A stretch of DNA of 64,000 nt, from the IMG/VR virus record IMGVR_UViG_3300027985_000843, positions 307,740 through 371,739 of that record; one strand, 5' to 3'. Positions 21,102 through 62,829 of the stretch are shown here, piece after piece. Source of the DNA: a virus. Within the stretch, counting starts at the first letter, position 1; each line of letters starts with the position of its first letter. Made by a program: the position numbers and the translations under genes. The notes under the pieces were generated by a model. The model was not told the origin of the DNA. It did not search any database and saw only the letters and a list, made by a program, of their open reading frames with translations.

Positions 21102-21314
21102 ATGGAAACAACGCTAGACCGAGTGGAATTCGTTCAACGTAGGATCGCTGAGAGGCTGGAGATTGCCAAGACGCTTCGGGAGCGGGCAGCAGGTCTTAAT
21201 GAAACTGATCCCGAGTCGGCTGAAGACTATCGCCGTCGAGCAGACGACGCGGAGTCTGTAGCTCTGGGTCAGAGGTCTGTTCTTTTGACTCTGTTCCCCC
21301 ACCTGGATCTATAG
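21102..21314 (+). CDS. Hypothetical helical protein, 70 aa
   Basis: P1 promoter at 21068-21096, which begins inside the previous gene; leaderless ATG. Charged helical protein rich in Arg and Glu, likely coiled-coil. Function unknown. Confidence 0.7.
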   Translation: METTLDRVEFVQRRIAERLEIAKTLRERAAGLNETDPESAEDYRRRADDAESVALGQRSVLLTLFPHLDL

Positions 21315-21361
21315 CCCAACGATTTTTCCGAACTCTTTCGGCCGGCCGTCGTAGTACGAGC

Positions 21362-21733
21362 ATGACGACCTCAACTGAGAACACCGCCTCCTGGAAGCAA
21401 CTGGCCGAACAAGCGTGGGACGCTTGTGAGGACAGAGAGTTGACGGTTGACGAAAAGGTGGCCCTGGTGGCGGAAGCCATCACCATCCAGTACCTGGAAA
21501 AGAAGGGCTACCGTAGCCTGGATTTCGCTTACCTGTCTTCCTGCTCTTGCCTCTCCGTCCGAGAGATGTCGGCCATCTGCCGCCATCATCTGGACAAGGT
21601 GGCTGCTCACCTCGGTGGCATCGCCCTCTCCTACCGCAAGGGCGAGTATGAGGGCAGCGGGCGCGGCGCCTTCGGTCGACTCAGTGGCGGCCGCCGAGCC
21701 CATTACAGCAAGCCTGGCCTGGTCATCGGTTGA
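21362..21733 (+). CDS. Paralog family A protein, 123 aa
   Basis: P1 promoter at 21328-21356, leaderless. The C-terminal GRGAFGRLSGGRRAHYSKPG tail and overall helical layout match the protein at 15357-15707. The N-terminal halves are more diverged. The conserved basic, Gly-rich tail may bind nucleic acid. Confidence 0.75.
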   Translation: MTTSTENTASWKQLAEQAWDACEDRELTVDEKVALVAEAITIQYLEKKGYRSLDFAYLSSCSCLSVREMSAICRHHLDKVAAHLGGIALSYRKGEYEGSGRGAFGRLSGGRRAHYSKPGLVIG

Positions 21734-36123: not shown

Positions 36124-37545
36124 ATGGTCACAGAATCAGACCTCCTAATCCACGGGCTCTCGAAAGCTTCCAGCGAAGCCTACACGAAAAGCTGGAAAGA
36201 GTTCGAGACCTGGTGCCAGGCGAACGGCAGATCAGCCCTCCCGGCCTCTGTCGAGACCATGGTGGAGTTCATCAAGAGCCACGAAGAGAAGTGGTCCGCT
36301 TCCACCCTGAGCCGAGCTGCGGCCGCCATCGCCAAGATCCACGTCCTGTACGGGGCCAGGTCCCCTGTCCAAGACGAGGCCAAGTTCATCCTCAAGAGCT
36401 TGGAAGCACAGCAGGAGCCCAACAGCAAAAAGGCCCTCACGAAAGACGAGTTCGAGACACTAGTTAGGCACACGAGCGGGCAGTCCCTCAAAGACATGCG
36501 GGACAAGGCTATGCTCCTGTTGGGCGTCTACACGGGCATGCCCATCGATACCCTGGTGGCCCTGCAAACAGAGCACATTGTCGAAGACAACGGCCGTTGG
36601 ACCATCGAGGTCGACGACTACCGGGTCGACTTCGACTTTGCTGTTGAACCCATCCCAAGCTTGTCCGCTTGGCTGAACTTCGCGAACATCGAAAAAGGCT
36701 ACGTTTTCCGCAATGTTCGGAAGAATGATACGCTGGGAGAGGGCAGCATCGGCTCGCGCCAGGTCAACCGCCTGCTCAAGAACCTTGCCACCAAAGCGGG
36801 GCTCGACGCCAAGGGCATCTCCTACGATTCGCTTCGTCGGAGCTTCCAGAATTCGGTCGGGCAGAAGATCGCCGTGGTCGTCCAAAAAACGGTTCGGCCC
36901 CGGACCTCTCCCAGCCTCCAGCGAGCCCTCTCCGACCTGGTCGAAGTGAAGGCTCAGGAAAAGCAGCTCCTCCAGGACTGGGTCGAAGCCTCCGAACGTG
37001 CTGAGGCCCTAAGCAAAGAGCTGAACCTCGTCACGGCACAGCTCCAGCAGATCCGTCAGGCCACCCAGGCCCACACGGTCACTGCGGACAGCAGCACACA
37101 AGACCTTCTCCGGTCCCTACTCTCCGGCTCGAAAACCCCCGAGGAGTGCCTTCAGCTCCTCGCCACGGCCTATCCCGAACGGATTGTGGTGCTGCCCTCA
37201 GCCGTGGCCTCTGCCCAGAAGGCACGCGCCTTCCGCTTCACAGACAAGCTGTTGCAGCTCTTCGATAAGCTCGCAACCGTCTACTTCGAGGCCCTGGCCT
37301 CAGGGAAGGGAGATACCGGCGCATACGCCTACATGGGGTGGAGCTATGCCGCCAACGACAGCTTCGGAAGCGCGTCCGCCAAGAAGCGGCGGGTCTTCGA
37401 ATACAAGGGCCAAGACATCCTCATGGAGAAGCACCTGCGGATCGGTCAGAAGCCCTCCCCCTCCGAAACCATCCGCGTCCACTTCGAGTGGATCGCCCCC
37501 GAGAAAAAGATCGTCATCGGCTGGTGCGGCCGCCACCTGGAGTAA
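36124..37545 (+). CDS. Integrase-fold protein lacking tyrosine-recombinase catalytic residues, fused to a C-terminal domain, 473 aa
   Basis: Residues 10-85 resemble the SAM-like core-binding domain of tyrosine recombinases (SEAYTKSWKEFETWCQANG). The region DMRDKAMLLLGVYTGMPIDTL aligns with box I, but the catalytic Arg is replaced (TGMPID for TGxRxxE). ISYDSLRRSFQNS aligns with box II, keeping one Arg but not the His residues. No nucleophilic Tyr is evident. A coiled coil (~275-320) and a ~120-residue C-terminal domain follow. It probably binds DNA without recombining it. P1 promoter at 36090-36118, leaderless. Confidence 0.65.
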   Translation: MVTESDLLIHGLSKASSEAYTKSWKEFETWCQANGRSALPASVETMVEFIKSHEEKWSASTLSRAAAAIAKIHVLYGARSPVQDEAKFILKSLEAQQEPNSKKALTKDEFETLVRHTSGQSLKDMRDKAMLLLGVYTGMPIDTLVALQTEHIVEDNGRWTIEVDDYRVDFDFAVEPIPSLSAWLNFANIEKGYVFRNVRKNDTLGEGSIGSRQVNRLLKNLATKAGLDAKGISYDSLRRSFQNSVGQKIAVVVQKTVRPRTSPSLQRALSDLVEVKAQEKQLLQDWVEASERAEALSKELNLVTAQLQQIRQATQAHTVTADSSTQDLLRSLLSGSKTPEECLQLLATAYPERIVVLPSAVASAQKARAFRFTDKLLQLFDKLATVYFEALASGKGDTGAYAYMGWSYAANDSFGSASAKKRRVFEYKGQDILMEKHLRIGQKPSPSETIRVHFEWIAPEKKIVIGWCGRHLE

Positions 37546-55245: not shown

Positions 55246-55263
55246 GTATGCCCAGGGCCTGAG

Positions 55264-55457
55264 CCATGCCCCTGGGCAGGGGGCGTAGCCCGAGGCCCTG
55301 GGCAGGGGGCGTAGCCCGAGGCCCTGGGCAGGGGGCGTAGCCCGAGGCCCTGGGCAGGGGGCGTAGCCCGAGGCCCTGGGCAGGGGGCGTAGCCCAGGGG
55401 GCGTAGCCCGAGGCCCTGGGCAGGGGGCGTAGCCCGAGGCCCTGGGCAGGGGCACCG
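55264..55457. repeat. 26-bp G/C-rich minisatellite
   Basis: The unit GAGGCCCTGGGCAGGGGGCG + TAGCCC is present in five perfect copies (55292-55395 and 55410-55435), with partial copies at both ends and a 14-nt truncated unit at 55396-55409. Repeats on one strand can be read as an open frame, but this is a by-product of the period and composition. The G-runs could form quadruplexes. Confidence 0.9.
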
Positions 55458-55512
55458 CCTCGGGCATGGCAGGGGGGCGTATGCCCCCCTGCCCAGGGGC
55501 GTGGACAAAGAA

Positions 55513-60079: not shown

Positions 60080-60334
60080 TCACTTGCAGGGGTCGGGGTT
60101 GCCGTACTCCGCCGCGACGGTGCGGGGACTGTCGAGCCCCGCAGCTTCCAGGACGTCACACGCTGCCGACAGCGTCTCTTTGCAGCCCGAAAGCTGCGCC
60201 TTCAAGAAGGCAACCTGGGTCTCCAGGTCTTGGATGCGAAGAGCCTGGTCCAGCTCCTTGCGGGTCGGGCGGTCGACCGAGGGGCTTCGAAGCTGCGGCA
60301 TGGCGGGGTCTCTGTCTGCGGTGTTGGTGTTCAT
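60080..60334 (-). CDS. Hypothetical protein, 84 aa
   Basis: Minus-strand P1, leaderless ATG 60334. Helical, with a heptad-like stretch (LRIQDLETQVAFLKAQLSGCKETL). The promoter spacer and first codons (MNTN...) are almost identical to those of the next P1 gene upstream, showing recent duplication of the promoter cassette. Confidence 0.7.
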   Translation of the reverse strand: MNTNTADRDPAMPQLRSPSVDRPTRKELDQALRIQDLETQVAFLKAQLSGCKETLSAACDVLEAAGLDSPRTVAAEYGNPDPCK

Positions 60335-60378
60335 GTCTCTACTACGCTCCCCGAAGGCCAAGGTTCGGAAAAATCGTC

Positions 60379-61495: not shown

Positions 61496-61804
61496 TCACC
61501 AAACTCGGTCGGGCTCGTAGTCGTACCCACGAGGGGCCGGCTCGGCCTCAGGCTCCTCTTCCGGCCCTCGGTCACACAGGATGATGGCTTCCGCCATCTC
61601 ATAGCCGACGTCATCGGCCAGCTCGTCCAGGGCCTCGTCACGGTCCTCGATCTTCTGGACGGCCTGGGCCGCCGCGTGGACCCGGCGAGCCTCTCTGAGG
61701 GCCCTCTGCGCCCCGCGAACGGCCTCTTCGGCCATCTCCAGGGCGATCTCCGCGTCTTCGATTGCGGTGTAGGTGTCGTAGGTCCAGGGTTTTGAAGTTG
61801 CCAT
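61496..61804 (-). CDS. Coiled-coil protein, 102 aa
   Basis: Minus-strand P1, leaderless ATG 61804. Long Ala/Glu/Arg helix (residues 15-75), likely coiled coil, and an acidic Pro-rich tail. No family. Confidence 0.7.
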   Translation of the reverse strand: MATSKPWTYDTYTAIEDAEIALEMAEEAVRGAQRALREARRVHAAAQAVQKIEDRDEALDELADDVGYEMAEAIILCDRGPEEEPEAEPAPRGYDYEPDRVW

Positions 61805-61844
61805 GTCCCTACTACGCTCCCCAGCCTCAAAGGTTCGGAACAAA

Positions 61845-62018
61845 TCAGCCCTCGACCTCAAGACGGTCAAGGATCGCAAGCATGGCCTTCAGATTCGTCC
61901 GCATGGTCCCGTGAACATCCCGGGAAGGTGGCTCCCCGATCACGGCCTGCACATCCGCTTGCAGCCCCTCAAGGCACCGCACGAGGATGGCCTCTTCCTT
62001 CGCTGTTGGTTCTCGCAT
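61845..62018 (-). CDS. Small helical protein, 57 aa
   Basis: ATG 62018 with a strong GGAGG ribosome site 5 nt upstream. It starts only 11 nt after the 3' end of the tmRNA-like RNA, so both could come from one transcript. MREPTAKEEAILVRCLEGL...; no family. Confidence 0.65.
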   Translation of the reverse strand: MREPTAKEEAILVRCLEGLQADVQAVIGEPPSRDVHGTMRTNLKAMLAILDRLEVEG

Positions 62019-62028
62019 CTCGCCTCCT

Positions 62029-62159
62029 TGGTGGAGCTGACCGGAATCGAACCGGCTTCCCCGTTCACGGTCTGCCTAAAGGCCCTTCTCGGGCCATCCA
62101 GGTCCCCCCGGCCCTGGCCTAGCTTTCGCTCGAACGGGAGGTGCCATACCTCCAGCCCC
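62029..62159 (-). ncRNA. tmRNA/tRNA-Ala-like RNA, about 131 nt
   Basis: The ends form a complete acceptor: 5' GGGGCTG with 3' CAGCTCC, then A and an encoded CCA. The G3-U70 pair is the alanyl-tRNA synthetase identity element. The T-arm is canonical (GCCGG-TTCGATT-CCGGT). A D-like hairpin GGT-ATGGC-ACC follows the acceptor. In place of an anticodon arm, a helix (CCCGTTC/GAACGGG) encloses ~65 nt with further hairpins (GGCCC-GAGAA-GGGCC). This is the plan of tmRNA, but far shorter, and no usual tag peptide is seen. It lies 3 nt after a P1-driven gene. Confidence 0.75.
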
Positions 62160-62162
62160 GAA

Positions 62163-62429
62163 TCACACCCTGCTGAAGTCCACCACCTGGGTCATGGCCT
62201 TGATCGTCTGCGCATAGGTCGTCGAAGCAATCCAGATGGCAAGGTCGTAGCTCCCAGGGGTTCTGTCCTTCGGAAACGTCTCCTGGAAGCACTGCCACAG
62301 GCCCATCCCCCACTCGGGGTCAGGATCCTCACCCCGATGCACGGCAAGCTGAACCTGCTCGCGGGCCGCGTCGATAGCCCAGGTGATGATTGCTTCGTTG
62401 CTCTTGCCGATTTCGTTCAAGGTTGCCAT
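62163..62429 (-). CDS. Hypothetical protein, 88 aa
   Basis: Minus-strand P1, leaderless ATG 62429. Helical, Trp/Ile-rich. Ends 3 nt before the tmRNA-like RNA, whose transcript probably starts at this P1. No family. Confidence 0.7.
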   Translation of the reverse strand: MATLNEIGKSNEAIITWAIDAAREQVQLAVHRGEDPDPEWGMGLWQCFQETFPKDRTPGSYDLAIWIASTTYAQTIKAMTQVVDFSRV

Positions 62430-62451
62430 GCCCGTACTACGATCCCCGGCC

Positions 62452-62829
62452 TCAAGAGTTCGGAGAATTCTTTCCCCTGGCCTTCCGCTGCCGCTCCGCC
62501 TCCCGCTCCAGGGCGGGGTACTTCCCTGGAGGAAGCCCGCACAGGCCGGCAAGCTCCGGCCCCATGTCCCGAGCCAGTTGCCGCCGCTCCCGCCTCACGG
62601 CCTCTTGCTCCCGCCGCTCTGCCTCCTCCCTACGGGCCCTCAAGATGTCCCGTAGCCTCCCTATGTCTGTCCTCACCTTGAACAGGATGAGACCCTCACC
62701 ACGGCCCTCCAGGAAGGCTTCCCCGGCCAGGGACTCAGCCACCATCGCTTCCAAGGTCGCGTCGTCGATGAGCCTCACGTCCCCTCGATCAAACGCATCC
62801 CATGCTGCTCGCATTGTCGAACGTTCCAT
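62452..62829 (-). CDS. Coiled-coil basic protein, 125 aa
   Basis: ATG 62829 with GGAGG upstream, one nt after the previous stop. Long Arg/Glu helix (IGRLRDILRARREEAERREQ, residues ~56-75). Its end overlaps the -35 of the next P1. Function unknown. Confidence 0.65.
   Translation of the reverse strand: MERSTMRAAWDAFDRGDVRLIDDATLEAMVAESLAGEAFLEGRGEGLILFKVRTDIGRLRDILRARREEAERREQEAVRRERRQLARDMGPELAGLCGLPPGKYPALEREAERQRKARGKNSPNS

Follow-up and report, generated by a model that had tools for sequence, protein, structure and literature searches.

A G3·U70 pair in the acceptor is sufficient for recognition by alanyl-tRNA synthetase (AlaRS), and the bacterial Y RNA YrlA consists of a tRNA-like module plus extra stems. 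The tRNA arrays of phages are usually read as serving codon supply or as standing in for tRNAs that defence systems have destroyed. Phage tRNAs have been reported (PMC11555353), and also proposed (PMC10264068), to counter defences that attack tRNAs. DS6A is the only phage with a TLD-only tmRNA named in the literature that we found (PMC4131195, PMC11915505), and its RNA, like the CDS-less tmRNAs of plastids and mitochondria, has an alanine-type G3·U70 acceptor and a T arm but no tag frame. The tRNA-Other of Bacillus cereus (PMC3399842) and the peptidoglycan-dedicated tRNAs are tRNA-shaped molecules that are thought to act outside decoding.

We compared with these systems a 131-nt tRNA-like RNA gene near the end of a 371,739-bp virus record, of which bases 307,740-371,739, the whole stretch of 64,000 nucleotides analyzed here, are referred to as the window. 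The gene lies on the minus strand, from its 5′ end at 62159 to the CCA of its 3′ end at 62029, and its elements read, from 5′ to 3′, GGGGCTG-GA-GGT-ATGGC-ACC-TCCCGTTCG-(insert)-TGAACGGGG-AA-GCCGG-TTCGATT-CCGGT-CAGCTCC-A-CCA. The acceptor is of 7 bp, with G3 in the 5′ strand GGGGCTG (62153-62159) and U70 in the 3′ strand CAGCTCC, which is followed by the discriminator A73 and a genome-encoded CCA (together 62029-62039). The T arm GCCGG-TTCGATT-CCGGT (62040-62056) precedes the latter strand. The D arm is reduced to a hairpin, GGT-ATGGC-ACC (62140-62150; extended form GGAGGT/ACCTCC), and U8 and a normal D-loop are missing. In the place of the anticodon stem, the fold has a helix between TCCCGTTCG (62131-62139) and TGAACGGGG (62059-62067), that is CCCGTTC/GAACGGG with a flanking U·G and G·U to make 9 bp, which encloses about 60 nt of hairpins: a GNRA-type hairpin, AGCGAAAGCT (62121-62130), and two more that are GC-rich, CCAGG..CCTGG and GGCCC..GGGCC (62068-62120). 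Every one of the tRNA-like parts named in a preliminary description of this DNA (the GGGGCTG/CAGCTCC acceptor, G3-U70, T arm, and encoded CCA) is present on the minus strand, and the sequence bears out its account of a ~131-nt RNA with a helix and hairpins in place of the anticodon arm. The 17-codon frame from GCG to TAG, which it had judged unlike a tag, starts at 62129 and reads AKARPGPGGPGWPEKGL up to the stop, and is indeed not degron-like.

The alanine identity proposed there is also seen, in G3·U70, A73, CCA, and a 3′ end of tRNA-Ala type. These features, the acceptor, and the T arm are as in tRNA-Ala; the acceptor is identical to that of the phage's own tRNA-Ala(GGC), and the only exact match to the 3′ 28 nt in 84,980 genomes is the tRNA-Ala(CGC) of an Opitutales metagenome-assembled genome (L226). 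The RNA differs from tRNA-Ala in having no anticodon loop, a reduced D arm, no U8, and the ~60-nt hairpin insert. Compared with the DS6A type, which is known here by description, it is similarly phage-borne but has neither the TCGAC D-loop nor GGAC, its D arm is a hairpin, its length is 131 rather than ~65-80 nt, and its phage also has a full tmRNA. The tRNA-Other and the peptidoglycan-dedicated tRNAs, likewise tRNA-shaped, retain an anticodon within a tRNA body, whereas here the anticodon arm has been replaced. The combination of a tRNA-like module with extra stems is shared with YrlA. The YrlA model gave no match to the 131-nt RNA and no TROVE (Ro60) gene was found in the phage, and a Ro60/YrlA ribonucleoprotein is not supported.

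The total folding energy of the RNA is unremarkable for its composition (z −1.32), and since the sequence is GC-rich, the significance lies in the arrangement and not in the energy. The tRNA-like fold, at −59.8 kcal/mol, is within 0.9 kcal/mol of the minimum free energy (MFE) of −60.7, and ensemble pair probabilities are about 0.95 for the acceptor (0.68 for its last pair), 0.53-0.61 for the T arm, and 0.45-0.67 for the helix. A structural descriptor specifying a 5-bp T arm, a 7-bp acceptor, a D hairpin of at least 3 bp, and a helix of at least 7 bp, with which about 150 kb (about 40%) of the phage record was scanned, matched once on both strands of the window (2 × 64 kb), at the 131-nt element. 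Ten Markov-shuffled windows gave one match in total, which was weaker and had neither the 9-bp helix nor CCA. With the 3′ half given, a fraction of 4e-4 of random 163-mers supplies the rest of the architecture, with a helix of at least 9 bp. The architecture is confirmed as non-random, and the earlier reading as an RNA gene is supported.

This RNA is missed by ARAGORN and, at gathering cut-offs, by Rfam. It had been called tmRNA-like, which holds for the acceptor and T arm but is not a tmRNA-specific likeness. In covariance-model searches, which the preliminary description had proposed for tmRNA and tRNA, the tmRNA model RF00023 gave 29.2 bits, under its curated cut-off of 47, and the canonical tRNA model RF00005 gave no match at this place at E≤10. 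Because the phage's own tRNA-Ala, tRNA-Cys, and tRNA-Ala genes score alike with RF00023 (30.4, 26.1, and 21.9 bits), we attribute the score to what the RNA and tmRNA have in common, an acceptor and T arm of alanine type. Where a tmRNA has its hallmarks, GGxxTCGAC in the D-loop and GGAC ahead of the T stem, the RNA has GGTATGGCACC and GGAA instead; a search for a resume codon or tag frame yielded the AKARPGPGGPGWPEKGL frame alone, and ARAGORN reports no tmRNA. An intron-containing tRNA was also considered and rejected, as ARAGORN with introns allowed gives no match at the 131-nt RNA. A model (R1) built from genuine miniature tmRNAs of ~78 nt scored the window RNA at 29.4 bits, in an alignment that used a spurious 5′ end and left the real one unaligned, compared with 51-89 bits for its own ~78-nt family, 44-64 for forms of 102-139 nt, and 18.6-23.1 for tRNA-Ala. 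Membership of the tmRNA family is not specifically supported by these sequence comparisons.

A highly derived TLD-only mini-tmRNA, tag-less like that of DS6A, which would bind SmpB and inhibit or replace host trans-translation, is nevertheless a reading to be weighed. The size class matches mini-tmRNAs of 114-139 nt in viral contigs, the R1 score is about 6 bits over that of the best tRNA-Ala, and in a by-eye alignment GGTAT-GGCAC and GGAA resemble GGTAT-CGAC and GGAC at the expected places, a likeness that was spotted post hoc. Inhibition of tmRNA in E. coli by a TLD-only RNA like that of DS6A has been reported (PMC11915505, PMC4131195). We consider this reading unlikely, given that RF00023 places the RNA no higher than an ordinary tRNA-Ala, that R1 places it far under genuine minis and aligns the wrong 5′ end, that TCGAC and GGAC are lacking, and that the acceptor and T arm are identical to those of tRNA-Ala. 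Moreover, the phage has a full tmRNA, and a search of the phage for smpB found none.

Our tentative preference is for a non-decoding tRNA-Ala mimic, likely charged with alanine, that would serve as a decoy or carrier. The RNA would be excised from a two-ORF transcript, with its 5′ end presumably produced by RNase P, and the retained acceptor/T-arm half would be recognized by AlaRS and EF-Tu. With the anticodon arm traded for a helix with hairpins, it would most likely be alanine-charged without decoding, and as a decoy or carrier it could occupy a host factor that handles tRNA, be it AlaRS, EF-Tu, SmpB, or a tRNA-attacking defence enzyme. We infer transcription, processing, charging, and the decoy role from the sequence. 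A decoy or carrier is favored because an RNA without an anticodon would need a partner to reach the ribosome, and of the outcomes suggested earlier, a decoy or a new aminoacylated RNA fits best, ahead of a ribosome-rescue mimic. The tRNA-Ala mimic is supported by an architecture unlikely to arise by chance, by the alanine determinants, by the exact fit between two genes, and by the recurrence of non-decoding tRNA-like RNAs. Against it, the predicted ensemble contains the T arm as drawn at a frequency of only about 60%, and the missing U8 and normal D-loop may weaken handling by EF-Tu and AlaRS. The phage's own full tmRNA sits oddly with a decoy of trans-translation in particular.

The phage is a jumbo phage with more than 40 tRNA genes, almost all of which lie at 247-276 kb, in an array that also holds an ordinary 366-nt tmRNA with the tag ANDNSAMPVAA. 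The 131-nt RNA lies about 93-94 kb beyond the end of this array, amid small genes that carry promoter-like repeats of their own. The repeat, CCGAAC-N17-CGTAGTA-nnnn-ATG, precedes many genes of the window on both strands and ends 4-5 nt before the ATG, with further copies at 60332-60369 (minus) and 21306-21374 (plus); its sequence and placement suggest a non-sigma70 promoter of near-leaderless mRNAs. One copy (CCGAAC..CGTAGTA..CATG; 62427-62464, minus) starts a two-ORF unit and the next (61802-61839, minus) closes it, and because the unit is bounded by the two copies, the RNA would be released from a two-ORF transcript. The upstream ORF of 88 aa (62163-62429, minus), for which one search found no homologue and another gave one doubtful 19-residue match, ends in a stop codon that lies 3 nt from the start of the RNA; the downstream ORF of 57 aa (61845-62018, minus) has an AGGAGG that directly abuts the CCA, and the RNA exactly fills the gap between the two. 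Elsewhere in the window, at 55251-55478, there are 26-bp tandem repeats, CAGGGGGCGTAGCCCGAGGCCCTGGG.

This setting would also suit a cis-acting tRNA-like processing or regulatory element, in which RNase P and 3′ cleavage split the ORFs and unmask the downstream ribosome-binding site. The RNA follows one stop codon by 3 nt and adjoins the AGGAGG of the next ORF, and the Shine-Dalgarno core is mostly paired in the predicted precursor (unpaired probabilities of four of its bases, 0.02-0.21) and less so in the free leader (0.47-0.64 for these four). As the predicted pairing masks part of the Shine-Dalgarno sequence more in the precursor, some probability attaches to a cis-acting role, but we regard it as distinctly improbable: a processing signal needs neither an encoded CCA nor G3·U70, other genes of the region use the promoter-like repeats instead, and the Shine-Dalgarno pairing is a prediction from a single sequence.

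Another tRNA-like gene of the phage, L009:17454-17542 (minus), is a degenerate tRNA-Trp with a 16-nt insert in the anticodon loop. The insert carries AGCGTAAGCT, which is near-identical to AGCGAAAGCT of the 131-nt RNA and occupies the same place; the shared AGCGNAAGCT hairpin, also spotted post hoc, occurs only three times in the 150 kb examined. The odd tRNA-Trp, with its near-identical hairpin, favors the view that the 131-nt RNA is a decaying tRNA-Ala gene with an insertion and without function. We give this view little credence and rank it behind the cis-acting element, since the acceptor, T arm, and long helix are perfectly paired, the CCA is retained, the RNA fits compactly between its neighboring genes, and an analogous RNA exists in another phage genome, G003, described below. 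At the opposite end of the record there is a tRNA with a UUA anticodon, of the ochre suppressor type (G000:C1:1355-1430, plus; L227), and because of its presence we checked the real stop usage of the phage. The stretches checked show no sign of TAA recoding; reading through TAA lengthens ORFs only slightly, and for this reason we claim no recoding.

The preliminary description had pointed to homologues in related phages as a check, and here no sequence homologue was found by patterns, blastn, or neighbors, although the architecture recurs. A blastn search of the phage collection with the 131-nt RNA returned 3′ ends only. Pattern scans of IMG/VR for this size class gave miniature tmRNAs, permuted tmRNAs, and artefacts of adjacent tRNAs, with no clear orthologue; the scans of viruses and genomes relied on fixed patterns, which near relatives of the window may escape. 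Searching by protein, we found relatives in 2 contigs through the terminase and in 21 through a cysteine protease, none through a 764-aa protein, and no terminase match in the genome collection; blastn of the RNA in the 23 related contigs again returned tRNA-type 3′ ends only.

G003 (138 kb), which has the homologous protease in common with the phage and contains a tRNA array and a full tmRNA, also carries an unannotated RNA of 131 nt (L229:11863-11993), 2 nt upstream of a tRNA-Asp. This RNA has the acceptor GGGACTC/GAGTTCC with G3·U70, ACCA, and a T arm; its D stem is short, and a long rod takes the place of the anticodon arm. Folded as a tRNA-like structure, it comes to within 0.1 kcal/mol of the MFE. 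We regard it as an analogue and not a homologue, because beyond the T arm and CCA there is no convincing sequence likeness to the window RNA. A further CCA-bearing tRNA-like RNA, of 132 nt, lies in G007 (L228:9901, minus). Within the array of the phage itself there are another five unannotated expanded tRNA-like RNAs (L010:250-1641, minus; 265.2-266.6 kb): one, with G3·U70 and CCA, measures 111 nt, and the other four 139-140 nt. These four have in common a variable-region domain of ~70 nt that ends in CTTACAAGC before the T arm, with changes on both sides at 16 of its 36 predicted pairs (from four sequences only); the window RNA is without this domain. A similar ACAAGC-T-arm arrangement occurs in G007 (L228) and in a 340-kb contig (L214).

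The remaining reading, in which a tyrosine recombinase left behind an attP-type tRNA 3′ end, is hardly credible: an integrase-like protein is encoded in the window (36124-37542) and the mycobacteriophages Marshawn and Shandong1 have similar 3′ ends beside integrases, but here the integrase gene is about 24.5 kb off, and an attP would not need the D hairpin, central helix, and 5′ acceptor strand that the RNA also has. As for the tRNA-Ala mimic, it is possible, if doubtful, that the window RNA belongs to a class of expanded non-decoding tRNA-like RNAs in some jumbo phages, some of them with alanine identity, which would be charged by the host and serve as decoys or carriers in taking over or protecting the translation apparatus. 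If so, non-decoding tRNA-shaped RNAs missed by ARAGORN and Rfam would point to another use of tRNA mimicry by phages.

The scans also returned genuine tmRNAs of several kinds. TLD-only tmRNAs of ~78 nt are present in L017 and at least 115 other IMG/VR viral contigs within L081-L199, for example at L116:5218-5294 and L127:2851-2928, with the pattern GGGGnTG..TCGAC-stem-AARRCC..GG-stem-GGAC-T arm; those with the acceptor present comprise at least 79 distinct sequences. For 25 contigs that carry TLD-only mini-tmRNAs or slightly longer ones, no tmRNA other than the mini exceeded the cut-off, and no smpB was found in these 25. A family of mini-tmRNAs of 133-134 nt (L015, L024, L025, L027, and L035), above the Rfam tmRNA cut-off where tested, has a conserved AGTARYGATAACTGCCCAYGG, which, read from AGT, could encode a short tag beginning S-S/N-D-N-C-P. 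The Mycobacterium phage SirSheldon has a full-length tmRNA (L038:1129-1531, 98.4 bits) and a GOLLD RNA clustered with tRNAs, neither of which is in the annotation of the record. Finally, four viral contigs (L011, L016, L021, and L026) carry permuted tmRNA genes, and such two-piece tmRNAs have already been reported in phages (PMC9004378).
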